The notes under the pieces: model-generated
Seen by the model: the letters and a program-made list of their open reading frames with translations, nothing else
Told to the model about the DNA's origin: nothing
Database searches by the model: none
Made by a program: the position numbers and the translations under genes
Shown here: positions 28,384 to 50,835 of the stretch, one piece after another
Layout: every line of letters starts with the position of its first letter
Numbering within the stretch: position 1 is the first letter of the stretch
Assembly: GCF_001043175.1 (NCBI RefSeq)
Contig: NZ_CP011494.1
Span: 3,348,001-3,412,000 of the forward strand
Length of the DNA stretch: 64,000 nucleotides
Direction of reading: 5' to 3'
Source of the DNA: Marinobacter psychrophilus
Lineage (GTDB): Bacteria > Pseudomonadota > Gammaproteobacteria > Pseudomonadales > Oleiphilaceae

Positions 28384-28449
28384 TTGGTTTGAGCATGCTG
28401 CGAGAAGCGGGTTACAAACACCAATTATCAACGCGAAAAAATCTGACAA

Positions 28450-28556
28450 AGAGGTCAACTAGGGTTCCGATCTGTTGTTAACAGCACAGGTGACTGGTCC
28501 GAGAGTTGACGGCCTTTTCCAAGGCTACACGGCGGGACAAAAGCCCGGGAGAATCG
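28450..28556 (+). ncRNA. Guanidine-I riboswitch (ykkC) 1
   Basis: The conserved blocks of the ykkC/guanidine-I aptamer appear in order: CTAGGGTTCCG, ACTGGTCCGAGAG, then ACGGCGGGACAAAAGCCCGG with GAGA. It lies in the leader of the carboxyguanidine deiminase / carboxylase operon. The aptamer's last bases (GGGAGA) take part in a downstream terminator, so guanidine binding would be expected to turn the genes on. The gene context favours the guanidine-binding subtype over ppGpp or PRPP variants. Confidence 0.93.
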
Positions 28557-28585
28557 TTCAGTGACTGACGCCTCTCGTTTTTTTT
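28549..28585 (+). terminator. Riboswitch-controlled terminator
   Basis: GAGA (28549-28552) can pair with TCTC (28573-28576), with an inner stem TCAG-TGA-CTGA, and eight T follow (28578-28585). The 5' arm is also the 3' edge of the aptamer, so the two structures compete. Confidence 0.65.
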
Positions 28586-28604
28586 CCAACCAAGCTAAGA
28601 GAAA

Positions 28605-29339
28605 ATGGCCATGCTCGAAACAGCAACCCCTCTCTACGACGATCTAATTCCCGGCGGATCCCACTGGTCCTTCATTGTGCGCCGCGGCCATGTACTGCGC
28701 CTGATTGACGAAACCGGCGGTGCCAGCGTCGGCATGTTGATGTACAACCCCGAGAACCCTCTCGAACGGTACAACATGCCGGACACCCTGAAGAACCAGC
28801 ACACCTTTCTGCTTACCCAGGGCCATGTCCTGTTCTCTGATATGGGCCGCGTCTTTGCTTCCATTATTCGCGACGATCTGGGCTGGCACGACACGGTCAG
28901 CGGCACCTGCAATGCCGATATGGTTGAGCAGCGCTGGGGCAAAAAGACCTATCAGGAAGCCCATAACCATCATCATCGCAACGGTTTTAGCAGCTTTCTG
29001 AACGAACTGGCCAAATACGGTCTCGGCAAAAAAGACCTGACCGCCAATCTGAACTGGTTCAGTAAAGTGAAGACCGATGATGGCGGCAATATGGCCTATG
29101 TCAGCGATCACTCCTACGCTGGCGCCACCGTGGACCTGAGGTTTGAGATGGACACCATCGTGGTGTTGCACACCTGCCCGCATCCGCTCGATACCGCGCC
29201 CGAGTACCCGAGCCACCCTCTGCGCTATCAGCTTTTCAAAGCGGCACCCGTCACCGATGCCGATCCTTGCAAGAACTCGTCGCCGGAGGCCACCCGCGCC
29301 TTCGCCAATACCGCCCTGTATCACATGATGCAGTCCTGA
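28605..29339 (+). CDS. Carboxyguanidine deiminase subunit (urea-amidolyase-associated protein 1, DUF1989)
   Basis: 244 residues. Belongs to the UAAP1 family, commonly annotated as urea related. Published work shows UAAP1 and UAAP2 together form carboxyguanidine deiminase (CgdAB), which converts carboxyguanidine to allophanate plus ammonia. Family blocks: [48 protein letters not shown], and [21 protein letters not shown] second ATG at 28611 is possible. First structural gene after riboswitch 1; UAAP2 follows by 17 bases. Confidence 0.9.
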
Positions 29340-29356
29340 TCGCGAGGAGGCCGACC

Positions 29357-29995
29357 ATGATTAAAAAGAGCGCACTGAACCCAGAGAACGCCATTTTTCG
29401 CGAGACAGTACCCGCGGGCGAGTATTTCCTGAAAGTTGTGAAGGCAGGTGAAACCGTTCAAATTCTGGACCTAGAAGGCAATCAGGCTGCAGATACACTG
29501 TTTTACAACGCCCACAACCCGACCGAGCGCTACAGCGCGGTGGACACCATCCGTGAGCAGGGCAATGTGTATCTAACCGCCGGTTCCAAATTGATGTCCT
29601 CCGAAAACAACGTGATGCTGGAGATTACCGCTGATACCTGTGGACGCCACGACACCCTGGGCGGTGCCTGCTCAGCGGAAAGCAACACCACCCGCTACGC
29701 CCTGGAAAAGAAATGTATGCACGCCTGCCGCGACAGTTGGCTGGTGGCGGTTACCGAGCACGAAGAGCTGGGCATGACCAAGCGGGATATTACCCACAAC
29801 ATCAACTTTTTCATGAACGTGCCGGTCACCGCTGAAGGTGGCCTCACGTTTGAAGACGGCATTTCCGACGCCGGCAAGTACGTCGAACTAAAGGCCGAGA
29901 TGGATGTGCTGGTGATGATTTCCAACTGCCCTCAGCTGAACAATCCCTGTAACGCCTACAACCCGACGCCCATTGAGGTGCTGGTATGGAGCTGA
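29357..29995 (+). CDS. Carboxyguanidine deiminase subunit (urea-amidolyase-associated protein 2, DUF1989)
   Basis: 212 residues from the ATG at 29357, which has a GAGGAGG site; the open frame extends 30 codons upstream into UAAP1 without support. UAAP2 family: [68 protein letters not shown], and the C-terminal [18 protein letters not shown]. It works with the UAAP1 product. The coding end overlaps the carboxylase start by 10 bases, so the two are translationally coupled. Confidence 0.9.
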
Positions 29996-32900
29996 ACGAG
30001 GCGTTAGACAAGGTTCTGATCGCTAACAGGGGCGCCATTGCCTGCCGAATCATCCGCACCCTGCGGGCCATGGGTATCACCTCGGTGGCGGTGTATGCCG
30101 AGGCTGACGCTGACTCGCTGCACGTACGCCAGGCCGACGAGTCGTATTCGTTAGGTGAAGGCTCGGCTGCGGCCACCTATCTGGATCAGAACAAACTGTT
30201 CGAAGTGATTGGCAAGAGCGGCGCCGGGGCCATCCATCCGGGCTACGGCTTTCTCAGTGAGAACGCCGACTTTGCCCGCCGCTGCGAAGCGAAAGGCGTG
30301 GTGTTCCTCGGGCCTACGCCGGGGCAGATGGAGGAATTCGGCCTCAAGCACACCGCTCGCGCCCTGGCCGAGGCCGCCGGCGTGCCACTGTTACCCGGCA
30401 CAGGGCTGCTCGCCAGCCTGGACGATGCCTTGGCGGCAGCCGATACCATCGGTTACCCGGTGATGCTCAAAAGCACGGCCGGCGGCGGCGGCATCGGTAT
30501 GTCACGCTGCTACAGCGCGGAAGATCTGAGCAAAAGCTTCGAGTCGGTTCAGCGTCTAAGCCAGAACAACTTCAGTAACAGCAGCGTGTTTCTGGAAAAA
30601 TTCGTAGAATACGCCCGCCACATTGAAGTGCAGTTGTTCGGTGACGGACAAGGGAAGGTAATCACTCTTGGCGAACGGGACTGCTCGGCCCAGCGCCGTA
30701 ACCAGAAAGTGATTGAAGAGGCGCCAGCACCAGGCCTGACCGAGGACGTGCGTACCCGCATGCACGCCACTGCCCGCCAGCTTGGCGAAAGCATCGGCTA
30801 TCGAAGCGCCGGCACGGTGGAGTTTATCTACGACCCGGACACCAACGAGTTCTACTTTCTGGAGGTAAATACCCGCTTACAGGTAGAACACGGCGTCACC
30901 GAGCAGGTTTACGGCGTGGACCTGGTGCGCTGGATGGTGGAACTGGGCGCTGGTTCCCTGCCGGATCTTGCAGAACTGGGCGCTAATCTCAAGGCTTCCG
31001 GCCATGCCATTCAGGCCCGGATTTATGCGGAGGATCCCAACAAGGACTTTCAGCCCGGTGCCGGCCTGCTGACCAACGTGGCCTGGCCCGAAGAGGATGG
31101 CCTGCGAATCGACACCTGGATCCAGCCGGGCACCGAGGTGTCTCCGCTGTTCGACCCCATGCTGGCCAAGGTCATCGTGCACGAAAGGGATCGTGAATCG
31201 GCCCGCAAACGGCTGATACAGGCTCTTGATCAGAGTCAGTTGTATGGCATTGAAACCAACATGAAGTATGTTGGACAGGTGCTGGACGACCCGCGATTTG
31301 TGGAGGGCCGTCTGTTTACCCGCACCCTGAGCGAATTCGATTACCGGCCATCCACTGTGGATGTTCTCAGCGGCGGCACCATGACCACAATTCAGGATTA
31401 CCCGGGCCGTATCGGCTACTGGGAAATCGGCGTTCCACCGTCCGGTCCGTTCGACAGCTATTCCTTCCGTCTGGGGAATCGACTGCTGGGCAACCTGGAG
31501 GGAGCACCGGGACTGGAAGTCACCCTCAAGGGGCCTGTACTCACCTTCAACCGCGCCACCCAGATTGCCCTGACCGGTGCAGCGCTCGAGGCCAGGCTCA
31601 ATGACGAGCCGGTCAATTTCTGGCAAATCATTGATGTACCCGCCGGCGCCACTCTGAAACTCGGCGCCACCACCGCCGATGGCGCTCGGGCCTATGTGCT
31701 GTTCCGGGGAGGCCTGAACTGCCCCGAATACCTCACTTCCTGCAGCACCTTTACTCTTGGACAATTTGGCGGCCACTGCGGCCGCGCCCTTCGAGCCGGC
31801 GACGTACTTGCCTTAGGCCAAGCGGAGCCTGTAGGTCCCGCTACCCTGCCAACGGACCTGAAGCCGTCTATTGGCAAGACCTGGAAACTCCACGTCACCT
31901 ATGGCCCCCACGGCGCACCGGACTACTTCACTGGCCAGGACATCGACACGTTCTTTGCCAGCGAATGGGAGATTCACTACAACTCCAGCCGCACAGGCGT
32001 GAGGCTGATCGGCCCGAAACCGGAGTGGGCACGCAGCGATGGCGGCGAGGCCGGCATGCACCCCTCCAACATCCACGATAACGCCTATGCGGTGGGTACC
32101 GTGGACTTCACCGGTGACATGCCGGTTATTCTAGGCCCTGACGGCCCCAGCCTGGGTGGTTTCGTGTGCCCGGCAACCGTGATCAGCGCCGATCTCTGGA
32201 AACTGGGGCAACTCAAGGCGGGTGACAAGGTGCAGTTTGTACCCGTCAGCCAGGATCAGGCGGTGGCCCTGCGGGAAGCGCTGGACGAGTCAGTGGCCAC
32301 ACTGACGGCGGTAACTACCCATATCACGCCCATCAAACCAGACACTCCGATCCTCGATTCACTGAGCACCAGCGACCATGAAGCCGGTGTGGTTTACCGG
32401 GCCGCCGGCGACAACTATGTGCTGGTGGAATACGGGCCCATGGAGCTGGATATCCGGCTACGGTTCCGGGCCCACGCGCTTATGCTCTGGCTGCGGGAGC
32501 AGAATCACCCGGCCATTCTGGAGTTGACCCCCGGCATCCGCTCCCTGCAGGTGCACTACAACAGCCAGAAACTGAACCAGCGAACGCTGTTAGACCTGCT
32601 GATCCGTGCGGAGCAGGAACTTGAAAAACAACCGGAATGGGATGTCCCCGCCCGCATCGTGCACCTGCCCCTGTCCTGGGATGACAAGGCCTGCCAGACC
32701 GCCATCGCAAAATACATGCAGTCGGTACGCAAGGACGCACCCTGGTGCCCGAGCAACCTGGAATTCATTCGCCGCATTAACGGGCTGGAGAGCATCGACG
32801 AGGTTAAAAAGACCCTCTTTGAGGCCACTTACCTGGTGATGGGACTGGGCGATGTCTACCTGGGCGCCCCGGTAGCCACACCGCTGGATCCGCGCCATAG

Positions 32901-33612
32901 GCTGGTGACGACCAAATACAATCCGGCCCGCACCTGGACGGCAGAAAACTCCGTGGGCATCGGCGGTGCCTACCTGTGCATTTACGGCATGGAAGGCCCT
33001 GGCGGCTACCAGTTTGTGGGTCGCACCTTACAGATGTGGAACCGCTATCGCACCACCGAGTTCTTTGAGGAGGGTAAGCCCTGGCTGCTGCGGTTCTTCG
33101 ACCAGGTGCGTTTCTATGAGGTCAGTGCGGAAGAGTTGCAACAGATCCGGCGGGACTTCCCAAATGGTGACTACCCGATCCGGGTCGAGGAAACCCGCTT
33201 CAATCTGGGGGATTACGAGAACTTCCTGGCGGATAACGACGACGAAATCCGTGAGTTCACTGGCAAGCGTCAGCAGGCCTTTGATGAGGAGCTACAACGC
33301 TGGATCGAATCTGGCCAGATTAACTTCAGTTCCGAGGCACCGGAAGAAGACACCGGCGAAGACAACATCGCAAATCTGCCCCACGGCCAGCACGCCGTGG
33401 AAAGCCACATAGCAGGCAACCTCTGGGAGTGCCTGGTTAAGCCCGGCGACATCATTGAGGCACAACGCCCGGTGGCGATTATCGAATCCATGAAAATGGA
33501 AATCGAATTGCTAAGCCCGGTCAGCGGTCGCGTAGTCGATGTGCGCCGGGAAGCGGGTCAGGCGGTTTCACCGGGCACACCGGTGGTGATCGTGGAAGAA
33601 ACAACTGAGTGA
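29986..33612 (+). CDS. Biotin-dependent guanidine carboxylase (urea carboxylase family)
   Basis: 1208 residues, the full multidomain length. Order: biotin carboxylase domain (residues about 8-450; [20 protein letters not shown], glycine-rich [27 protein letters not shown]), then the KipA/KipI-like carboxyltransferase halves (about 465-1000; [26 protein letters not shown]-like [16 protein letters not shown]), and a C-terminal biotinyl domain with the biotin lysine in [12 protein letters not shown]. Automated annotation would call it urea carboxylase. The riboswitch and CgdAB-type partners indicate guanidine as substrate, giving carboxyguanidine. The choice of substrate is by context, not by a residue I can prove. 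Confidence 0.88.
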
Positions 33613-33693: not shown

Positions 33694-34761
33694 ATGAAAA
33701 AACGTGATTTCAGCAAGCGTCTTGCGGCCGGTCTGTTAACAGCCGGTTTGTCTATGGGCGCCCTCGCCCAGGAGAAAGACTCCTTCAGTATCGCCTGGAC
33801 CATCTACGCCGGCTGGGTGCCCTGGCAGTATGCCGAAGACAGCGGCATCATGAAAAAGTGGGCAGACAAGTACAACATCGACGTCGATATCGTACAAATC
33901 AACGACTACATCGAATCCATCAACCAGTTCACTGCCGGACAGTTTGACGGCGTGGTCGCCACCAGTATGGACGGCCTGTCCATTCCGGCCGCCTCCGGTG
34001 TCGATACCACCGCACTGATTGTGGGTGACTACTCCAATGGCAACGACGGCCTGGTGTCCAAGGACGCCAAGACCATCGGCGAGCTGCAAGGCGAAACCGT
34101 GCACCTGGTGGAACTGTCTGTATCCCATTACCTGCTGGTTCGCGCCCTGAACACTGTCGGGCTGGAAGAGCGTGACATCAGCGTAGTCAACATTTCCGAC
34201 GCGGACCTGCTCTCTGCGTTCCAGACCGACGACGTTCGCCACGTGGCAACCTGGAACCCGCTTTTGGCGGAAGTGGAAGCCTTTCCGGGGACCACCAAAC
34301 TGTTCGACTCCAGTGCGATTCCGGGCCATATCAAGGATCTGACTCTGGTGAACACCGAGACTCTGGCCGACAATCCGAAGCTGGGCAAGGCACTGGTTGG
34401 CGCCTGGTATGAAACCATGAGCATTCTGGCGTCCGACAGCGAGGAAGGTCAGGAAGCCCGCGCGATGTTGGGCGAGCTGTCCGGTACCGATCAGGTAGGC
34501 TATGAAGCCCAGCTGGCCGGTATGAAGATGTTCTGGGTGCCGCAGATGTCGGTGGACTTCATTAACAGCAAGGAAGCCCACGAGGCGATGGACAGTGTTC
34601 GTCAGTTCTCTTTTGAAAAGGGGCTGCTGGGCCAGGGTGCCATGAGCCCGGACTTTGTGGGTATCGAGTTTCCGGACGGTTCGGTGATGGGCGATGAAGG
34701 CAATGTGAAGCTACGCTTTGACGATAGCTACATGCAGATGGCGGCAGACGGCGAGCTTTAA
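33694..34761 (+). CDS. Substrate-binding protein of a guanidine-linked ABC transporter (NitT/TauT class)
   Basis: 355 residues with a signal peptide (about residues 1-25, LAAGLLTAGLSMGALAQ). The periplasmic binding fold is of the NitT/TauT type: FSIAWTIYAGWVPWQYAED, DGVVATSMDGLSIPAASGVD, HLVELSVSHYLLVRAL. It ends the first guanidine transcription unit. The matching permease and ATPase are in the second riboswitch-led unit 3.6 kb downstream, so transporter parts are split between two units with the same ligand control. Guanidine or a guanidino compound is the inferred cargo. Confidence 0.82.
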   Translation: MKKRDFSKRLAAGLLTAGLSMGALAQEKDSFSIAWTIYAGWVPWQYAEDSGIMKKWADKYNIDVDIVQINDYIESINQFTAGQFDGVVATSMDGLSIPAASGVDTTALIVGDYSNGNDGLVSKDAKTIGELQGETVHLVELSVSHYLLVRALNTVGLEERDISVVNISDADLLSAFQTDDVRHVATWNPLLAEVEAFPGTTKLFDSSAIPGHIKDLTLVNTETLADNPKLGKALVGAWYETMSILASDSEEGQEARAMLGELSGTDQVGYEAQLAGMKMFWVPQMSVDFINSKEAHEAMDSVRQFSFEKGLLGQGAMSPDFVGIEFPDGSVMGDEGNVKLRFDDSYMQMAADGEL

Positions 34762-35484: not shown

Positions 35485-36843
35485 TCAGAACATCTTCAGG
35501 TAGCGGTCTACTTCCCAGGACGACACATGGTTCTGGTAACTCTCCCACTCCCCTTTCTTGTACTCGATAAAGCTGTTGAACATGGCTTCGCCGAAGACTT
35601 CTTTCGCCAGCGGATCTGCTGCGAATGCCTCCACGGCCTCTCCCAGATTCCTTGGCAGATACTCGATGCCCTGCGCTGCAATTTCTGCGTCGCTGTAGTT
35701 GTACATGTTCTCGTGGTGAGGATCGCCGGCATCGAGGCCCTCGCGGATACCTTCCAGGCCCGCCGCCAGGATGAGGGCACTTCCGAGGTAGGGGTTGCAG
35801 GCGATATCCGCTGCACGGCACTCAATGCGGCCACCCATGCTGGGAATACGGATCATGTTGGTACGGTTGTTGGGGCCGTAGCACATGAACACCGGTGCCC
35901 AGGTCGAGCCCGACATGCTTCCCTGGCGCACCAGGCGCTTGTAGCTGTTGACCGTGGGGGCGATGACGGCGGTGATTGCGGCGCCGTGCTTCAGCACGCC
36001 GGCGATAAAGTGGTAGGCGATTTTGCTGATACCACAGTTATGCAGGTCGTCATTCTTGGGTTCGAACAGGTTCTCGCCGGTTTTGATGTCGGCCAGCGAC
36101 ATATTGTAGTGAGCACCGCTGCCAGTCCGGTCGGCGAAGGGTTTGGGCATGAAGCTCGCGAAGGCGCCGTGTTTGCGGGCGATTTCGTTGGCCATCATGC
36201 GGAAGAACACCAGGCGATCGGCCATGGTCAGGCCATCAGCGTACTTGAAGTCGGTTTCGAACTGGCCGTTGGCGTCTTCATGGTCGAACGAATACACATC
36301 CCAGCCCAACTCGTTCATGGCGTCCACCAGCTCGTCCAGAATGGGCAGGTTATCCATCAGAGTGCGCGGGTCGTAGCAGGGCTTGCCAAGGTTGTCGCGA
36401 TCACTCAACGGAGCAAAGCCGCCGCCCTCGGTGTCCCGGAACAGGAAAAACTCGGTTTCGATACCCAGATTGAAGCGGTAGCCCATATCTTCGGCGACAC
36501 TTAACTGGCGCCGGAAAATATTGCGCGAGCAGGCTTCAAACGGCTCGCCATTGAGGTAAAGATTTCCGGGAAACCAGGCCAGCTTCCGGTTCCAGGGGCA
36601 AATGGCGAGGCCCTCTGCATCCGGCATGGCGGCCACTTCGTCGTCAGAGATGTCCTGGGGAACACCATCCAGAGCGGCACCGGTATAAAGCTCGGAGCCT
36701 TTCATCATTTGGCCAAGATGGGCCACAGGCACAAACTTGCCCTTGGTAATGCCATGGATGTCCACGTAACTGGCAATGGCGTATTTGACGCCCGCATCCG
36801 CCAGCTTCTTCTTAAGGGCCTGGGTATTGATCAGGTCATTCAT
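35485..36843 (-). CDS. glnT: Type III glutamate-ammonia ligase (GlnT-like glutamine synthetase)
   Basis: 452 residues from the ATG at 36843 (GAGAGGAAA upstream); an 18-codon N-terminal extension is open but unsupported. Glutamine synthetase fold of the GlnT group (about 440 residues). Motifs: YVDIHGITKGKFVPV, metal and glutamate site in NLGIETEFFLF, FDHEDANGQFETDF, GSGAHYNMSL, and the ammonia/ATP region VNSYKRLV then NNRTNMIRIP with GRIECRAAD. Members make glutamine or, in methylamine users, gamma-glutamylmethylamide; no methylamine genes are visible here. Beside a guanidine degradation system it most simply assimilates the ammonia released. Confidence 0.87.
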   Translation of the reverse strand: MNDLINTQALKKKLADAGVKYAIASYVDIHGITKGKFVPVAHLGQMMKGSELYTGAALDGVPQDISDDEVAAMPDAEGLAICPWNRKLAWFPGNLYLNGEPFEACSRNIFRRQLSVAEDMGYRFNLGIETEFFLFRDTEGGGFAPLSDRDNLGKPCYDPRTLMDNLPILDELVDAMNELGWDVYSFDHEDANGQFETDFKYADGLTMADRLVFFRMMANEIARKHGAFASFMPKPFADRTGSGAHYNMSLADIKTGENLFEPKNDDLHNCGISKIAYHFIAGVLKHGAAITAVIAPTVNSYKRLVRQGSMSGSTWAPVFMCYGPNNRTNMIRIPSMGGRIECRAADIACNPYLGSALILAAGLEGIREGLDAGDPHHENMYNYSDAEIAAQGIEYLPRNLGEAVEAFAADPLAKEVFGEAMFNSFIEYKKGEWESYQNHVSSWEVDRYLKMF

Positions 36844-36921
36844 GGTATTTCCTCTCTTCAGCCCGGCAAGGCGAGCCGTCGGTTTATGTTCTGGCATGTT
36901 TCTTTCTTGATTTTAACCATT

Positions 36922-38141: not shown

Positions 38142-38244
38142 ACAATTCGGGTAGATGGTTTTGATAAACCTGATCCGTTGACAGCATCGTTCACAGCGCC
38201 CTTCACGAAAGGGCAAGCCACGCTTCGAAACAGACGGATACAAT

Positions 38245-38353
38245 GGGTGACTAGGGTTCCGGTCCGGGCGAATCTGCAACAGCAGCCCGGATGGCTGGTC
38301 CGAGAGTTACCGACCTCTGGGAGGTTACACGGCGGGACAAAAGCCCGGGAGAC
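38245..38353 (+). ncRNA. Guanidine-I riboswitch (ykkC) 2
   Basis: Same conserved blocks as copy 1: CTAGGGTTCCGG, CTGGTCCGAGAGTTACCGA, ACACGGCGGGACAAAAGCCC with GGGAGA. It precedes the permease-ATPase-allophanate hydrolase unit. No T tract or terminator follows. Instead CCTCTGG at 38314-38320, inside the aptamer, is complementary to CCAGAGG at 38404-38410, the ribosome site of the permease gene, which hints at translational control. Confidence 0.93.
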
Positions 38354-38419
38354 TGAATCGCAAGTGATGCTGTTACCCGCGATGATTGTGCCGTGTTGTC
38401 TAACCAGAGGAGAAAACGT

Positions 38420-39235
38420 ATGCGACTGATCAACCGCCACCCGGGGCGGGTTTCGGCCACCCTGTTAGGCCTGCTGCCCTTCCTGTTGATCATGCTGATC
38501 TACAGCCTGGCCTCCCAGGAGCGCCTGGCGGACAACCCCAACGACAAACTGCTGCCCGGCTCTGAACAAATGATGGCCGCGGTTGATCGCATGGCGTTTC
38601 AGGAAGACCGTCGCAGTGGTGATTACCTGATGTGGCAAGACACCGCCGCAAGCCTCCAGCGTTTGGGCTTAGGTGTCGGTATTGCCGCGTCGCTGGCGCT
38701 GGTGGTGGGGTTGATCAACGGGGTTCTGCCCCTGATAAGAGCAAGCCTTGCGCCTCTGGTGTCGACACTCTCGATGGTGCCACCGCTCGCGATATTGCCC
38801 ATCCTGTTTATCGTGTTTGGTCTTGGCGAACTCTCCAAAGTCATGCTTATCGTCATTGGCACCGCGCCCATCATGATGCGGGATGTGGCTCAGCGAGTCC
38901 GGGAACTCCCCGGTGAGCAACTGATCAAAATTCAAACCCTGGGCGCCAACTCCTGGCAAGTCATTACCCGCATGGTGTTGCCTCAGATTCTACCCCGCCT
39001 GATCGATGCGGTTCGGCTCAGCCTGGGCCCGGCCTGGCTATTCCTGATTGCGGCGGAGGCCATAGCGTCCACCGAAGGACTGGGCTACCGCATCTTCCTG
39101 GTAAGACGCTACCTGGCGATGGATGTCATATTGCCCTACGTCATCTGGATTACCATTCTCGCCATCGTTATCGACCAGTGTCTGGGCTTAGCCAACCGCA
39201 AACTGTTCCCTTGGTACAATGCGGGAGGCCACTGA
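38420..39235 (+). CDS. ABC transporter permease (NitT/TauT class), guanidine-linked
   Basis: 271 residues from the ATG at 38420, which has an AGAGGAG site; the frame is open 9 codons upstream. Inner-membrane protein with about six helices and the ABC coupling motif region (LPGEQLIKIQTLGANSWQVITRMVLPQILPRLIDA, typical EAA-G loop). SsuC/TauC-like. Its TGA overlaps the ATPase ATG by one base. Partner binding protein is probably the one encoded at 33694-34761. Confidence 0.88.
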   Translation: MRLINRHPGRVSATLLGLLPFLLIMLIYSLASQERLADNPNDKLLPGSEQMMAAVDRMAFQEDRRSGDYLMWQDTAASLQRLGLGVGIAASLALVVGLINGVLPLIRASLAPLVSTLSMVPPLAILPILFIVFGLGELSKVMLIVIGTAPIMMRDVAQRVRELPGEQLIKIQTLGANSWQVITRMVLPQILPRLIDAVRLSLGPAWLFLIAAEAIASTEGLGYRIFLVRRYLAMDVILPYVIWITILAIVIDQCLGLANRKLFPWYNAGGH

Positions 39236-40020
39236 TGAGTTTCATTACCGTCAAAAATCTTTGGAAACAGTACGGCGATCAAATCGTGCTGGAAAACCTC
39301 AACTTGAGTGTAAGTCAGGGCGAGTTCTGCACGTTGGTAGGTGCATCCGGCTGCGGCAAGTCCACCTTCTTGAAAATGCTTCTGGGCCAGGAAACATCAA
39401 GCCAGGGCAAGCTGTTGCTTGAGGGCAACACCTTTCCCAGAGAACCGGACCGTAACCGCGGCGTCGTGTTCCAACGCTATTCGGTGTTTCCGCACCTGAC
39501 TGTGCGCCAGAACGTGCTGCTGGGGCTGGAGCTGGAGCAGCGACCCTTCCTGGGCAAACTGTTCGGGTCAGCACGCCGGGAAGCATTAAAAGAAGTCGAC
39601 GCCATGCTGGAGTCTGTGGGGCTGGCCCATGCCGCCAACAAATGGCCCCACGAACTGTCCGGTGGCATGCAGCAACGCCTGGCCATTGCCCAATCCTTTG
39701 TCATGAAACCCCGAATTCTGCTGCTGGATGAGCCCTTCGGTGCGCTGGATCCAGGCATCCGTGGCGACATGCATGAACTGATTCTCAAACTCTGGCGCGA
39801 TACCGGCACCACCATCTTCATGGTGACCCACGACCTTTACGAAGGTTTTCATCTTGGCACTCGCCTGCTGGTGTTCGACAAGGTCCGTAACGATCCGCAA
39901 CAACCGGAAGCCTTCGGCGCCACCATCACTTACGACCTGCCGATCGGTCAGAACGACCGGAAGATCTATAAATCCATTGAAACCTCCGTGTCGAAGACGG
40001 CCCGGAGCCTGTCAGCATGA
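39235..40020 (+). CDS. ABC transporter ATPase (NitT/TauT class), guanidine-linked
   Basis: 261 residues from the ATG at 39235, coupled to the permease. Walker A VGASGCGKST, Q-loop VVFQRYSVFP, signature LSGGMQQRLAIAQ, Walker B ILLLDEPFGALD, H-loop MVTHDLYEG. A C-terminal extension of about 40 residues follows the ATPase core. Supplies energy for the import system whose permease precedes it. Confidence 0.92.
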   Translation: MSFITVKNLWKQYGDQIVLENLNLSVSQGEFCTLVGASGCGKSTFLKMLLGQETSSQGKLLLEGNTFPREPDRNRGVVFQRYSVFPHLTVRQNVLLGLELEQRPFLGKLFGSARREALKEVDAMLESVGLAHAANKWPHELSGGMQQRLAIAQSFVMKPRILLLDEPFGALDPGIRGDMHELILKLWRDTGTTIFMVTHDLYEGFHLGTRLLVFDKVRNDPQQPEAFGATITYDLPIGQNDRKIYKSIETSVSKTARSLSA

Positions 40021-40027
40021 GAACCCC

Positions 40028-41821
40028 ATGAAGACCACAATCAATCTTGACATTCCGTCATTGTTACAGGCCTACCGCAGCGGCAACCTCACACCCGCCA
40101 CAGTGGTGTCCCACTTGCTGCAACGGGCGGCGGAGTTCAGCGACCATAACGCCTGGATATTCCTGGCCAGCGAAGAGGACTTGGCCCCCTACCTCGAACG
40201 CCTGCAGCAGACCAGCCCGGATGAGCTGCCTCTGTATGGCATACCGTTTGCCGTGAAAGACAACATTGACGTGGCTGGCATGCCCACCACCGCAGCCTGT
40301 GAGGCCTATCGCTATCACCCGGAACGGCACGCTGCCGTAGTCGAGGCCCTGGTTAGCGCCGGTGCTATTCCATTAGGCAAGACCAACCTCGATCAGTTTG
40401 CCACCGGGTTGGTGGGTACACGCTCACCGGAACCCTGGGGAGCCTGCCATAACAGTTTCAATACCGACTATATTTCCGGCGGGTCGTCTTCCGGTTCCGC
40501 CGTTGCCACCGCCCTGGGGCTAGTCAGCTTTGCCTTAGGCACGGATACCGCCGGTTCCGGCCGGGTACCCGCAGCATTCAATAACCTGATCGGGCTAAAA
40601 CCCACACTGGGAAGACTAAGCGTGCGCGGCGTAGTGCCCGCCTGTCAGAGCCTGGACTGTGTCGCCATCTTCGCCCGTACCGCCGGCCAGGCCCAAAGCG
40701 TACTGTCTGTCGCTTCCGAAACCGACCTCGACGACCCTTGGCAGCGCGAACCCCCCACCGGGAACCGCCCTCTGCCGGAACATTTTCGCTTTGGTATACC
40801 GGCAGATGAGCAGCTGGATTTTGATGGCGATAAGGGCGCCCGGGCGCTGTTTGCCGAGTCCATTCGCCAACTGGAATCCCTGGGTGGCGAAAGGGTCACG
40901 GTGGATTTCCAACCCTTCCTGGATGCCGCCAGACTGCTGTACGAAGGCCCTTGGGTGGCGGAACGCTACCTCGCCACCAGCCCGCTGATCCAGGAACAAC
41001 CAAACGCCCTGCTTGCGGTAACCCGTGGCGTTATCAGTCAAGGCGCTGATGGCTCCGCTACCGATGCATTTCAAGCCCAGTACCGACTGAAGGCATTGAA
41101 ACATAGGGCGGACAGGGTATGGGAGCAGGTCGACGTTATGCTAACTCCGACTACCCCGACCATCTACACCATCGATCAGTTGAAACAAGAACCGGTGGCC
41201 CACAACAGTCGCTTGGGCACTTACACCAACTTCATGAACCTGCTGGACTACAGCGCCATCTCGGTGCCGTCCGGGTTCCTCGATACCGGGCTGCCGCTGG
41301 GCTGCACATTGTTCATGCCAGCCTTCCAAGACGAGGCCCTGTTGGCTCTGGCCAGCCGCCTACACCCCCTGACAAGCGACACCGTTGGCGCGCTCGAAGA
41401 TACCCTGGTCAGTCCGGCACTGACGGCCACAGTCGGCACAATAGAGGTACTGGTGTGCGGCGCCCACCTCACCGGGCTGCCCCTGAACCATCAGCTCACC
41501 AGCCGCAACGCGGTGTTGTCGGAAACCACCGAAACAGCCAGTTGCTACCGCATGTACCTGCTGGCAGGTGGGCCGCCATTGCGCCCTGGCATGTTCCGTG
41601 ATGAAACTAGCGGCATCAGTCTGCCAGTGGAAATCTGGCGGGTACCGGAGGATCAGTTCGGCAGTTTTGTGGCGGGCATTCCAGCGCCCCTTGGTATCGG
41701 CAAAGTAGAACTGGCGAATGGTCGATGGGTGTCAGGCTTTATCTGCGAGCCCATAGGGCTGGAAGGCGCCGACGAAATCACACACTTGGGTGGTTGGCGA
41801 GGTTTTCTTGAATCCTGCTAG
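40028..41821 (+). CDS. atzF: Allophanate hydrolase
   Basis: 597 residues from the ATG at 40028. Amidase-signature enzyme splitting allophanate into CO2 and two ammonia, the last step after carboxyguanidine deiminase. Catalytic Lys in PFAVKDNID, Ser pair in SGGSSSGSAVATAL and DTAGSGRVPAAF. The C-terminal domain of AtzF (from about residue 470, EVLVCGAHLTGLPLNHQL; EIWRVPEDQFGSFVAGIP; ending EGADEITHLGGWRGFL) is complete. With the carboxylase and UAAP1/2 it completes guanidine to ammonia and bicarbonate. Confidence 0.94.
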   Translation: MKTTINLDIPSLLQAYRSGNLTPATVVSHLLQRAAEFSDHNAWIFLASEEDLAPYLERLQQTSPDELPLYGIPFAVKDNIDVAGMPTTAACEAYRYHPERHAAVVEALVSAGAIPLGKTNLDQFATGLVGTRSPEPWGACHNSFNTDYISGGSSSGSAVATALGLVSFALGTDTAGSGRVPAAFNNLIGLKPTLGRLSVRGVVPACQSLDCVAIFARTAGQAQSVLSVASETDLDDPWQREPPTGNRPLPEHFRFGIPADEQLDFDGDKGARALFAESIRQLESLGGERVTVDFQPFLDAARLLYEGPWVAERYLATSPLIQEQPNALLAVTRGVISQGADGSATDAFQAQYRLKALKHRADRVWEQVDVMLTPTTPTIYTIDQLKQEPVAHNSRLGTYTNFMNLLDYSAISVPSGFLDTGLPLGCTLFMPAFQDEALLALASRLHPLTSDTVGALEDTLVSPALTATVGTIEVLVCGAHLTGLPLNHQLTSRNAVLSETTETASCYRMYLLAGGPPLRPGMFRDETSGISLPVEIWRVPEDQFGSFVAGIPAPLGIGKVELANGRWVSGFICEPIGLEGADEITHLGGWRGFLESC

Positions 41822-43100: not shown

Positions 43101-43910
43101 TCAATGTCCGCCTTCCTCCCGCATCATGCCTAGAATCTGCTTCTCCATCGCTGCATATTCAGGGTGACCACGCATATCCTCACGGGTGTTGATCTCCTTG
43201 CAGGCCTTAAAGGGTGGGTACAGAATGGTTTTCACGCGTCCCGGATGACGTGACAGGAAGACGATTTGGTCGCCCAGCAGCAACGCTTCCTCGACATCGT
43301 GGGTAACCATCACCACCGTCATACGTTCTTTGCGGATCACGTCGAGCAGCAGCTCCTGCATTTGCCAACGCGTCTCCGCGTCCAGTGCGCCGAAAGGCTC
43401 GTCCATCAGCAACACTTTGGGGCTATTGGCCAGGGCGCGTGCCAGGGCGACGCGTTGGCGCATGCCACCGGATAATTGGTGAGGATAGGCACCGGCAAAA
43501 GCACTCAGGCCGACACGCTCGAGAAAATAATCGACCGTGCCCTCCCTTGACGCAATGACGTCCCCGTTGATTCGCAGACCGTACGCCACGTTCTCACGGA
43601 CCTTGAGCCAGGGAAATGAGGTATAGCCTTGAAACACCATGCCCCTATCCCTGTTCGGCCCGCGCACCAATTCACCATTGAGGCTGACGTTGCCGCTGGA
43701 CGGACGTTCAAGCCCGGCCATCATGCGTAAAACGGTGGACTTGCCGCAGCCCGAAGGGCCAAGCAGGACGCACACCTGCCGTGGGTCGACGTCAAAACTG
43801 ACGCCTTCCACGGCAACGACTTGTTTGCCGTTGTCGGCAAACACCTTGCCAACCTGATTAATCTGCAAACCTTGAAAGCCGGCATCCAGATTGACTGCTT
43901 GCGCACTCAT
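43101..43910 (-). CDS. ABC transporter ATPase (NitT/TauT class), module 2
   Basis: 269 residues. Walker A LGPSGCGKST, Q-loop MVFQGYTSFPWLKV, signature LSGGMRQRVALARA, Walker B VLLMDEPFGALD, H-loop VMVTHDVEEALLL. The start overlaps the binding-protein stop by four bases (ATGA). Last gene of the five-gene module 2. Confidence 0.93.
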   Translation of the reverse strand: MSAQAVNLDAGFQGLQINQVGKVFADNGKQVVAVEGVSFDVDPRQVCVLLGPSGCGKSTVLRMMAGLERPSSGNVSLNGELVRGPNRDRGMVFQGYTSFPWLKVRENVAYGLRINGDVIASREGTVDYFLERVGLSAFAGAYPHQLSGGMRQRVALARALANSPKVLLMDEPFGALDAETRWQMQELLLDVIRKERMTVVMVTHDVEEALLLGDQIVFLSRHPGRVKTILYPPFKACKEINTREDMRGHPEYAAMEKQILGMMREEGGH

Positions 43911-44956
43911 TTTGCTTTCAGCGCCGCCTTGAGCGGGCTCAGTTCAACACCGGTAGTCCAATCGTGCATGGCGTCGGCCATACCGAACTTTTGCCACCAG
44001 GTATTGGTGGTGTTCCAGTGCTGAACAATCTGGCCATTGGTCATACCTAACGGCAGCTCGCCCTCGGCCACACCCATAAAGCGCCCGGCTTCCTCCAAAT
44101 CGAACACCATGATGCCGCCCTTGTAGATCTCACCATCAGTACCGATGACCATCTCCACATCGCTGACATTGAACTGAATCGCTTCAGCAATAATACGATT
44201 GCCTTCTTCCGGATTGGCCTTCCAGTAATCGACTGCCTTGAAATAGGCTTCCACCGCCAGATTGGCTGCTTCCGGGCGCTCAGTCAGAAAGGCTTCGCTC
44301 ATATACATGCCGTCGCCCAGCAACGCGGTACTGATCCAGTCATCTTCGCTCGAATCCGCAACCACCCGGGCGCCAGGCATATTTTTCAGCAGCTGGCTGC
44401 CAAAGGGCTCCCAAAGCTCGACCGCACTGACACTGCCGCCCAGCATGGCGCCCACGGCCTCATCCATGATCACGTTGACGAACTCAACTTGATCGATGGA
44501 AACACCATTTTGTTCCAGCCAGATACCCATGAAGATCTGCGTCAGGCCTCCTTCCATCACTGCGATTTTCTTGCCAATCAGGTCCTTTGCAGATTCGATG
44601 CCCGGTGCCAAGATGATTTTGTCGGTACCGAACGAAGGGTTGGTATAGGTCACCAACTTGACTGGCACACCCTTATCAACCGCAATCGGGCCGTACTCGA
44701 CTGTGCTAGAGGTAATATCCAACTGACCGGCTGTCATCAGGCCAAAGCTTTCATACGGATCCTCAATAATAATGATATTCAGGTCCAGTTTGGGCACCAG
44801 GTTTTTTTCCTTAGCGATGAACCAGAAGCCATAACCAGGCCACGAGAACAACGACACATTAACCTTCTCCGTCGCCTGAGCGATCCCTGTAGCGCACGTG
44901 AATGCTGCGCCCAGTAAACACCCTTTGGCTGCCTTGCTCCAGTTACTCGATCGCAT
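43907..44956 (-). CDS. ABC transporter substrate-binding protein (NMT1/TauA-like), module 2
   Basis: 349 residues from the ATG at 44956 (AGGAG upstream). Signal peptide about residues 1-28 ending IAQA-TE. NitT/TauT-class binding fold: VNVSLFSWPGYGFWFIAKEK, IIEDPYESFGLMTAGQLDIT, AVELWEPFGSQLLKNMPGAR. Aromatic-rich start (SWPGYGFWF) suggests a cationic or aromatic ligand, but this is a guess. Confidence 0.88.
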   Translation of the reverse strand: MRSSNWSKAAKGCLLGAAFTCATGIAQATEKVNVSLFSWPGYGFWFIAKEKNLVPKLDLNIIIIEDPYESFGLMTAGQLDITSSTVEYGPIAVDKGVPVKLVTYTNPSFGTDKIILAPGIESAKDLIGKKIAVMEGGLTQIFMGIWLEQNGVSIDQVEFVNVIMDEAVGAMLGGSVSAVELWEPFGSQLLKNMPGARVVADSSEDDWISTALLGDGMYMSEAFLTERPEAANLAVEAYFKAVDYWKANPEEGNRIIAEAIQFNVSDVEMVIGTDGEIYKGGIMVFDLEEAGRFMGVAEGELPLGMTNGQIVQHWNTTNTWWQKFGMADAMHDWTTGVELSPLKAALKAK

Positions 44957-45018
44957 AGTCAATCTCCTAAATGAATGAATCTTTGAACCCTTTCCGCGAC
45001 GGCCGCGGCGCGAAAGGC

Positions 45019-45834
45019 TTACCTCTCCCGCTGCCGTAAATACGGAAACGCCAACCAGTGCACCCCTCGAAAAGCCAAATCACACAACAATCCCAGCGCG
45101 CCGATCACCACAATCCCGGCCATGATGTCATCCACGTAAACAAAACGTCTGGCCCGCATCATCATTGCTCCGATGCCGTCTGTGGCAGCGACGATCTCCG
45201 CAATCACCAGGTAAGTCCAACTCACCGCGAGCATCTGACGGCAAGTATCAACAATTCCAGGCAATGCCGCGGGTACCACTACCGTCCAAAGAATCACTCG
45301 GCGTGAGCCGCCCAGAGTCTTTGATGTCTCAATAAAATCTGCAGGCACTTGCCGCACCACATCACTGACAAGTGTGATCAGAAACCACACCACGCCGAGG
45401 ACCAGCAGCGCAATCTTCTGTTCATTCCCCGTACCTAGCCACATCAACAAGAGTGGAATAAAAGCGGGCGCAGGCAAGTAGCGAAAGGCCGAAACCAGGG
45501 GATTGAAAAACGCCGCCACCAGCGGGAACGCTCCCATCAGCACCCCCAGCGGAACAGCAACCGCCACCGCCAGTGCAAAACTAACACCAATGCGCTTGAG
45601 ACTACTCAGCACGTCAACGCTGAACTCGCGCTCCAGAAACAGTTCACGCAGCGCCTCAAACACCTGTAGCGGCCCCGGAAAAAGCGGGCTTAGTGTTCCC
45701 GTAGCTGTTGCAGCGAAATGCCACGTTAGTACAAAAACCAACCACGCTGTCACGCCTAACATCAGTTTGACACCCGGTGCTACGGGCTGCTTGAAGTCAA
45801 GACTATCCCAGACTGCTGCCATGAATCCCGACAT
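45019..45834 (-). CDS. ABC transporter permease (SsuC/TauC-like), module 2
   Basis: 271 residues, about six transmembrane helices; LVFVLTWHFAATATGTLSPL near the start, then the coupling loop VPADFIETSKTLGGSRRVIL. GGAG lies before the ATG. Follows the desaturase gene by 43 bases in the same transcript. Confidence 0.92.
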   Translation of the reverse strand: MSGFMAAVWDSLDFKQPVAPGVKLMLGVTAWLVFVLTWHFAATATGTLSPLFPGPLQVFEALRELFLEREFSVDVLSSLKRIGVSFALAVAVAVPLGVLMGAFPLVAAFFNPLVSAFRYLPAPAFIPLLLMWLGTGNEQKIALLVLGVVWFLITLVSDVVRQVPADFIETSKTLGGSRRVILWTVVVPAALPGIVDTCRQMLAVSWTYLVIAEIVAATDGIGAMMMRARRFVYVDDIMAGIVVIGALGLLCDLAFRGVHWLAFPYLRQRER

Positions 45835-49473: not shown

Positions 49474-50835
49474 CTATACCGGCGCACCAGGCTGGACGCC
49501 GCTGATCTGTTCCCACTGCTTCGCCAAGGCGAGCATTTGATAATCGCTGTATCTTGGTCCGGCGAAACTGACCCCAAATGGCAAACCATCATCGCGCATG
49601 CCACCCGGCACAGAAACCACGGACAGTTCGAGCAGATTACCGAAATTCGTGTAGTAAGCCATGTTCCGATTCAGTTCCAGCGGGTCGGCTTTTACTTCGT
49701 CACACCGGTAGAGCGTGCCAGCGGTGGGCATTAGCAAGCAGTCGAAAGAGGCCAGAAGCTGGTGGGCGGCGGTTTTCAAATGGTTCAGCCGGGCGACATC
49801 AGTCCAGATGTCATGGCTGGTGACCGTTTCACCTTTCAAAATACAACCTGCAACCACTTCATTCACACTGTCGGGGTGCTGTTTAACGAAGCTACCCACG
49901 GAGTCGTATCGTTCGCTGACAAAAGCACCGTCAAACAGCATAGCGCCCGCTTCTACAAACACACTGAAATCGACCGGTTCAATCTGGGCGCCCTGCGCTT
50001 CAAGCGTCTTCAACACGTCTTTGAAGCAGGCTTCGGCCCGAGCATCACCAAAGAAGTTAAGCCCCTCAGCGCCGGGAATTGCGATCCGAATTCGCTTTAA
50101 ATCCGGTATTGAGTCCGCCAGTAAACCGGCCGCTCTGTTGTTTTCCATGAGCTGGCGGAACACACACTCCGCCTCAGCTGCAGTGCGGGCAAACACGGGT
50201 ATACAGTCAATGCTTTTATTAGCGTAAACCATACCCTCATTGGATAGCAGGTGCGGCGTCGGCTTAAAGCCGACAATATTGCACATAGCCGCGGGCAATC
50301 GTCCGGAACCGCCGGTATCGCTGCCCAGAGAAAAAGTCACGCAGCCGGTGGAAACCACTACGCCAGACCCAGAGCTGGAACCACCCGGAATAAAATCCGG
50401 ATTGAACGGGCTGACCGGGTGCGGATCGCTGCGAACGCCTACCACTCCGGTGGCGAATTCATCCATGGTGTTTTTGCCAATCAGCATGGCGCCCAGATCC
50501 AACAGGCGCTGAACAACTGGTGATGTGGTTGTGGAAAGTGTCCGGTAATCTGGGCAGCCTGCCGTCAGCGGCAGCCCTTCAACATGAATGTTGTCTTTTA
50601 TCGCAAAGGGAATTCCGTAAAGCGGCAAATTAGCATCAAGGGTTGCCAAATGTTCGGCGCGGGCCAGTAACTCTGCCTCCGGCACGAGACAAATCCATTC
50701 GGCACGCGAGCTTCTCTCGCTGATTCGGCGCAACACCTCCTCAGCAACCTGCCTGGGCACAAACCGCCCTGCTGAATAACCTTCCCTGAGATGGAACAGA
50801 TCCAGCCCCTGATAAGACGTCAGAGAAACTCGCAT
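49474..50835 (-). CDS. Amidase-signature enzyme related to allophanate hydrolase, module 3
   Basis: 453 residues. Amidase domain with Lys in [12 protein letters not shown], Ser pair in [15 protein letters not shown] and [12 protein letters not shown], and the same LPLYGIPFA block as the AtzF at 40028. It lacks the roughly 140-residue C-terminal domain of AtzF. Closest relatives in function would be amidases acting on small carbamoyl or ureido compounds; the true substrate is unknown. Last gene of module 3, with a weak ribosome site. Confidence 0.87.

Follow-up and report, generated by a model that had tools for sequence, protein, structure and literature searches.

Two Guanidine-I riboswitches, RS1 and RS2, lie in the 64,000-nucleotide stretch of Marinobacter psychrophilus DNA analysed here (the window), both on the same strand as, and upstream of, genes of guanidine metabolism; together they probably switch on the uptake and breakdown of guanidine, RS1 through a terminator combined with a layer acting at the ribosome-binding site (RBS) and RS2 through the RBS layer alone. 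Comparison of leader sequences and modelled folds suggests that both leaders are able to hide the RBS by pairing it with hairpin P2 of the aptamer; the response to the ligand, the direction of both switches and the dual layer are what we infer. The aptamer, the pathway and the placing of a guanidine switch ahead of a carboxylase wrongly named for urea are known biology in a new genome, since the consulted parts of a 2025 review (PMC12186494) treat the control by Guanidine-I of so-called urea carboxylases that really use guanidine as established. Beyond an earlier note on this DNA, the present analysis adds the second switch, RS2, and the P2-RBS layer, the latter as a comparative prediction.

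Scanning of the window with cmscan gave a full-length match of RS1 to RF00442 (model positions 1-107, E 1.3e-14) at 88.9 bits (gathering score 63). The covariance search on the Guanidine-I model, which the earlier note had itself named beforehand as able to overturn it, thus upheld the intact ykkC aptamer placed at 28450. No other riboswitch family rose above its own cut-off in the window, nor did any Guanidine-II element, and by the family cut-offs the RF00442 matches do not belong to the subtype-2 ykkC RNAs (ppGpp, PRPP). The elements of the first leader up to the T run are as follows.

28448-28553, + strand: RS1 aptamer, Guanidine-I (ykkC), from cmscan with RF00442.
28546-28577, + strand: RS1 intrinsic terminator hairpin, from sequence, fold and conserved stem.
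28578-28585, + strand: terminator run of eight T, from sequence and shuffles.

The RS1 terminator is well supported. Its 5' arm, CGGGAG (28546-28551), is the 3' end of the aptamer itself and its 3' arm is CUCUCG (28572-28577), with an inner stem sitting between these two outer arms, so that a GC-rich hairpin sharing aptamer bases is followed directly by a T run, as previously claimed. The assignment of GGGAGA as the 5' arm holds in part: the hairpin uses these bases, but the last A (28552) faces a C and is unpaired. At this last stem position a standard pair (G-C, A-T or G-T) occurs in 39 of 41 orthologous RS1 leaders, with G-C in 30, G-T in 5 and A-T in 4, the window being among the two with A-C; over the outer stem as a whole, 285 of 287 cells in the 41 leaders are standard pairs. 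Dinucleotide shuffles of the RS1 leader produced an aptamer-overlapping terminator with at least seven T in eight in 5 of 1000 cases and one with eight of eight in none of 1000, and a terminator-like site was present in 40 of the 41 orthologous leaders at a threshold of at least 5/8 T, 34 at 6/8, 15 at 7/8 and 3 at 8/8. The folding energy of RS1 was unremarkable against shuffles (z -0.87 and -0.38 for two stretches) and was dropped as proof, and a generic terminator scan did not pick up the hairpin; the case is therefore carried by three features, namely the shared aptamer bases, the T run and conservation within the genus. In the cmscan structure line, C28546 and G28548 of the terminator arm are paired in aptamer P3, which makes the full hairpin and the full aptamer mutually exclusive; with the aptamer enforced, the folding model still forms a shortened hairpin, GAGA/UCUC (28549-28552 with 28573-28576), at 28585.

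The genes downstream of the two aptamers, all on the + strand, are the following.

28605-29339, + strand: UAAP1 (DUF1989), carboxyguanidine deiminase subunit type; TIGR03425 324.2 bits (cut-off 205.95), PF09347.
29267-29995, + strand: UAAP2 (DUF1989), probably starting downstream of the listed TTG; TIGR03424 338.4 bits (cut-off 284.7).
29986-33612, + strand: biotin carboxylase of 1208 aa annotated 'urea carboxylase'; TIGR02712 1862.6 bits, Asp707.
33694-34761, + strand: ABC transporter substrate-binding protein of the 'putative urea' type; TIGR03427 499 bits (cut-off 333.9).
38420-39235, + strand: ABC transporter permease; PF00528, taurine/nitrate-type permease families.
39178-40020, + strand: ABC transporter ATPase, true start probably later; PF00005.
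39854-41821, + strand: allophanate hydrolase with C-terminal domain, true start probably later; TIGR02713 764 bits, PF21986.

UAAP1 and UAAP2 we take to be carboxyguanidine deiminases. In the carboxylase, Asp707 aligns with an Asn of the K. lactis urea carboxylase (3va7/5i8i), a specificity column that presumably corresponds to N1330 of the K. lactis enzyme, the number matching the 5i8i numbering. According to the consulted parts of the review, Asp marks guanidine carboxylases and Asn urea carboxylases at that column (PMC12186494), and by this residue the enzyme of the window is of the guanidine and not of the urea kind. Asp was found at this position in 78 of 80 relatives and Asn in L048 and L051. 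Two loci outside the operon match urease-alpha, and the genome as a whole has a single TIGR02712 match above the cut-off. The guanidine-type Asp together with UAAP1 points to a guanidine-assimilation operon in Marinobacter, and these observations support, at the level of sequence, the earlier proposal that the substrate of the operon is guanidine rather than urea.

The stretch between the RS1 and RS2 gene groups encodes a TetR-type regulator and an alpha/beta hydrolase and, on the opposite strand, a type III glutamine synthetase. In other genera, many loci have one gene run, SBP-PERM-ATP-UAAP1-UAAP2-carboxylase, and Marinobacter therefore seems to have split this run in two; not every member of the genus shows the split, as the elements L083, L087, L101 and L109 of other members instead precede a binding-protein gene.

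Several side observations concern these neighbourhoods. L048 and L051 have an Asn carboxylase despite an upstream Guanidine-I aptamer, and L054, the second Vreelandella utahensis locus, is counted with the Asp enzymes. The type III glutamine synthetase (window 35485-36897, - strand) adjoins or lies inside guanidine carboxylase clusters in several genera: of 30 Marinobacter loci, several of them truncated by contig ends, 19 have it together with the TetR and hydrolase genes; in L031-L033 and L078 it is part of the gene run, and in four Thalassolituus-like loci (L073, L074, L080, L082) it is divergent. The enzyme may assimilate the released ammonia. Among loci in which no Guanidine-I was found, Guanidine-II was present in 8 of 9 tested (L032-L034, L044, L049, L072, L078, L079), shortly before the carboxylase gene in seven of the 8. 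Further along the window, a second amidase resembling allophanate hydrolase but lacking the C-terminal part (49474-50835, - strand) has nearby a taurine/nitrate-type ABC transporter and an ArgE/DapE deacylase (43101-45834, - strand); this neighbourhood possibly belongs to another nitrogen-compound pathway.

RS2, which had been overlooked before, precedes the permease, ATPase and allophanate hydrolase genes.

38240-38353, + strand: RS2 aptamer, Guanidine-I; cmscan with RF00442, 85.3 bits, full length.

RS1 and RS2 are the only Guanidine-I matches in the 4.0 Mb genome (3,998,597 bases, one contig), and Guanidine-I occurs in 52 of 124 genomes of the genus, with two copies in 41, one in 10 and three in 1. 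RS2 lacks the GC-rich, aptamer-sharing hairpin with T run that defines the RS1 terminator. A permissive rule (5 T of 8) flagged 26 of 36 RS2-family leaders, among them a site in the RS2 of the window with the tract TGTTGTCT; in a stricter scan, which demands that the 5' arm lie inside the aptamer end and counts T over 8 positions, 0 of 36 had a terminator at T of at least 6/8 and 14 of 36 at the loose threshold of at least 5/8, and an RS2 terminator was rejected. As separate observations on arrangement, genomes G433, G178, G159 and G793 each have a region with two divergent Guanidine-I aptamers separated by a few hundred bases, and in genomes G534, G841, G856 and G731 same-strand Guanidine-I aptamers are stacked at a spacing of about 1.4-1.6 kb.

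The segments of the two leaders that take part in the predicted pairing of P2 with the RBS are listed here.

28511-28526, + strand: RS1 P2 hairpin, GGCCTTTTCC-AAGGCT, putative alternative partner of the RBS; cmscan structure, full-leader MFE and permutation tests.
28593-28613, + strand: RS1 RBS and start region, AGCTAAGAGAAAATGGCCATG, complementary to P2; full-leader MFE and pair counts.
38314-38320, + strand: RS2 P2 5' arm and loop, CCTCTGG, predicted anti-Shine-Dalgarno; MFE pairing with 38404-38410.
38327-38333, + strand: RS2 conserved aptamer segment ACACGGC, predicted to pair with GCCGTGT (38390-38396) in the alternative fold; MFE.
38390-38422, + strand: RS2 leader end, with GCCGTGT at 38390-38396, CCAGAGG of the RBS at 38404-38410 and ATG at 38420; sequence and MFE.

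In the full-leader MFE of RS1, P2 is opened; its new partners are AGCT (28593-28596) and GAAAATGGCC (28601-28610), and the pairing encloses the terminator hairpin. The RS1 of the window gave 14.0 expected P2-RBS pairs, more than its RBS region forms with each of 45 other aptamers, and its Shine-Dalgarno (SD) core is left in an internal loop when P2 and the RBS pair; many relatives show a tighter match, in which GGCCTTTTCC faces GGAAAAGGCC immediately before the ATG. The RS1 start codon is likely the ATG at 28611 and not the alternative at 28605, since it alone is present in most listed orthologues. In RS2-type leaders CCTCTGG is constant and the 3' side of P2 is variable (exceptions L020, L086 and L102); across 37 leaders, 98.8% of cells of the nearly invariant CCTCTGG:CCAGAGG helix and 253 of 256 cells of the ACACGGC:GCCGTGT helix are standard. 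The RS2 leader folds with a z of -2.17.

Individual leaders differ in this region. The extra in-frame ATG at 28605 is shared, among the listed leaders, with L003/L098 and L013/L095 only, and the RS1 RBS of the window reads AAGAGA where 19 of 41 RS1 leaders have AGGAGG. The RBS region of L167 has the P2-complementary motif GGAAAAGG twice and that of L168 has it once plus a near copy. L170, by scan the sole terminator-less leader among the 41 RS1 leaders, has a large insert in the P2 loop after TTTTCC and nonetheless retains GGCCTTTTCC and GGAAAAGG.

P2-RBS complementarity is non-random. In a first sample, 143 distinct leaders (7 of 210 skipped at extraction) were grouped by shared words into 46 clusters with one representative each, and the number of pairs expected to join P2 to the region from -22 to +3 was compared between each leader's own aptamer and aptamers permuted among clusters. 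The mean was 6.71 for own aptamers versus 3.18 for permuted ones (sd 0.50), with 0 of 20,000 permutations as high, and the unpaired probability of the RBS was 0.381 versus 0.435 (0 of 20,000 as low). The control hairpin P1b showed no excess (0.80 versus 0.89; 12,042 of 20,000 as high), and the 3' part of the aptamer showed a mild one (1.84 versus 1.46; 352 of 20,000). A second sample, taken from further families of the phylum of which several belong to the same order, comprised 41 usable hits (5 skipped) in 26 clusters and partly overlaps the first, L220 having the same leader end as L037; here P2-RBS pairs numbered 5.04 versus 1.72 (0 of 20,000 as high), the RBS unpaired probability was 0.365 versus 0.417 (5 of 20,000 as low) and the control hairpin gave 2.23 versus 1.55 (1777 of 20,000). 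With longer transcripts the excess at the RBS persisted (0 and 1 of 20,000) and was strongest there; against coding windows P2 had a small excess, with 320 and 561 of 20,000 for the first set, and a lesser one, with 1126 and 6406, for the second, and none against the leader upstream of -22 (18,307 and 3461 of 20,000). Because of the mild excesses at the aptamer 3' part and the coding windows, part of the P2-RBS signal may be composition.

The pair count was adopted after a measure of SD-hexamer accessibility had given no support in the UAAP1 and permease groups, and was thus selected with the folds in view; it was already fixed before the second sample. The hexamer test started from the 86 distinct records that remained once exact duplicates, 5 records lacking a start and one element whose next gene was not known had been set aside; L045, L101, L109 and L102 were removed by hand to give 82, and all four are back in the 46-cluster sample. 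Accessibility was not lower than in chimeras in the UAAP1 group (0.54 versus 0.46, n=35) or the permease group (0.41 versus 0.40, n=24), and was lower only in the SBP group (0.08 versus 0.26, n=23). The RS2-type permease leaders L020 (1.5 pairs) and L102 (0.0 pairs) show no P2-RBS excess. By platform, the 46 clusters divide into 9 with both, 7 with the terminator only, 11 with P2-RBS pairing only and 19 with neither, under the permissive terminator rule, which counts the RS2 of the window as terminator-bearing.

Covariation was evaluated within the RS1 and RS2 families. The RS1 P2 5'-arm:RBS helix within Marinobacter scored 372 of 405 cells against a shuffle mean of 373.3, with no covariation above shuffles. 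When the 3' arm of P2 was set against the RBS side in 41 RS1 leaders, C stood opposite A in none of the aligned rows: leaders with GGCT have AGCC or AGCT opposite in 17 of 19, the remaining 2 not being alignable there, and those with GGTT have AACC in 14 of 22, TACC or CACC in 3, AGCC as a wobble match in 3 and a different form in the last 2. A tree test on the downstream gene yielded 3 supported independent pairs only, too few for significance, and was not significant; the RS2 helices are almost invariant.

Energies from the folding model indicate where the competition may lie. Keeping the aptamer, with the cmscan structure enforced, costs about 7.5 kcal/mol at 28549 and 7.9 kcal/mol at 28585, a rise so small that the terminator adds little competition in the model; the 7.5 kcal/mol baseline probably stems from lone pairs and from tertiary terms that the model lacks. 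After synthesis of the RBS, the cost reaches 13.7-16.6 kcal/mol, about 6-9 over baseline, and as modelled the RBS would be a stronger competitor of the aptamer than the terminator. With the Kd of 44 uM given for the Guanidine-I of V. boliviensis in the consulted parts of PMC12508155, guanidine at 1 mM contributes a binding bonus of about 2 kcal/mol. Since the RBS-paired gap exceeds equilibrium ligand binding, kinetic locking would be needed, with guanidine acting during transcription, before the RBS emerges.

Under the mechanism that we propose, the 3' end of RS1 would, at no guanidine, be taken by the terminator hairpin and transcription would end at the T run; in those transcripts that read through, P2 would unfold and pair with the RBS, so that translation would be blocked as well. 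Guanidine would lock P1-P2-P3, shortening the terminator stem and freeing the RBS. RS2 would operate by the RBS step alone, assisted by the second helix, ACACGGC/GCCGTGT, which would disrupt P3. More broadly, we see roughly even chances that the Guanidine-I elements of Pseudomonadota commonly possess an overlooked translational platform, in which the 5' arm and loop of P2 would serve as anti-RBS because the RBS mimics the 3' half of P2, the terminator being an added layer in some lineages (RS1) and absent in others (RS2, Vreelandella utahensis, Halospina).

A somewhat unlikely alternative is that RS1 is an ordinary transcription-terminating Guanidine-I and that its P2-RBS match is a by-product of the resemblance of a GACCT-type arm to an anti-Shine-Dalgarno sequence. 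Such a reading agrees with the usually transcriptional action of Guanidine-I stated in the consulted parts of the review (PMC12186494), with the strong T run behind the overlapping RS1 hairpin, with the lack of covariation above shuffles for the P2 5'-arm:RBS helix in Marinobacter and with hexamer accessibility that is not reduced in the UAAP1 and permease groups. It does not account well for the permutations, in which swapped aptamers, many of them with a P2 of the GACCT kind, pair less than own partners, for the reach of the GGCCTTTTCC/GGAAAAGGCC match of relatives well past the Shine-Dalgarno core, or for the constancy of CCTCTGG beside a varying P2 3' side (apart from the three exceptions named) in RS2-type leaders that are terminator-less at T of at least 6/8.

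The converse, translation-only control by P2 with a weak or vestigial RS1 hairpin and T run, and with transcripts lost through Rho or decay after translation stops, we hold to be quite improbable: the eight of eight T and the overlapping stem in the window, and the near-complete pairing of the terminator stem across the 41 leaders, argue against it, even though T runs are weak in several lineages (34 of 41 at 6/8 falling to 15 of 41 at 7/8), RS2 of the same cluster does without a terminator and the modelled RBS competition is far above that of the terminator. Very little credence is left for an operon serving urea as annotated with the riboswitch as a bystander; NCBIfam does name a urea carboxylase and a putative urea ABC transporter, but urea was rejected as the substrate on Asp707 in place of the K. 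lactis Asn, on the gene partners and on the two urease-alpha loci elsewhere in the genome, and two guanidine aptamers in one cluster tell against it as well. Dual control of RS1 and RBS control of RS2 remain our preferred reading.

In ykkC of the Bacillus subtilis type, the terminator overlaps the 3' end of the aptamer. RS1 resembles this type, in which guanidine prevents the terminator and favours read-through according to the consulted parts of PMC12186494, and differs from it by the predicted extra sequestration of the RBS by P2. As far as the consulted parts of PMC12508155 and PMC12186494 go, the Guanidine-I operons of Vreelandella boliviensis, Raoultella and Klebsiella michiganensis have the same aptamer class in an ON switch and share the pathway genes found here (ABC importer, CgdA/B, carboxylase and allophanate hydrolase); those operons combine Guanidine-I with Guanidine-II, whereas the present cluster has two Guanidine-I, one per pathway half, of which a single one has a clear terminator. 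The Guanidine-I of V. boliviensis is presumed to act through a terminator in the same parts of PMC12508155; by scan, L051 and L054 of Vreelandella utahensis and L053 of Halospina are leaders with no terminator, and their cluster has 17.1 expected P2-RBS pairs, a comparison drawn on those relatives. There is also a likeness to the Guanidine-II and Guanidine-III translational switches, in which guanidine is thought to expose the Shine-Dalgarno sequence (PMC12186494, consulted parts); these use other aptamers, whereas the anti-RBS strand here would be P2 of Guanidine-I. No description of P2 as anti-RBS was found in the surveyed parts of the literature on Guanidine-I translational control (including PMC7266159, PMC6031431, PMC9800807 and PMC13296017), the founding papers lying outside that survey.

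If P2-RBS pairing works, the view of Guanidine-I as a transcription switch would be an incomplete picture for many bacteria of the phylum, and transcription assays alone would misjudge its dynamic range. The cluster of M. psychrophilus would then be a natural matched pair, in which one ligand in one cell acts on a dual switch governing the enzymes and binding protein (RS1) and on a translation-only switch governing the permease, the ATPase and the last enzyme (RS2).
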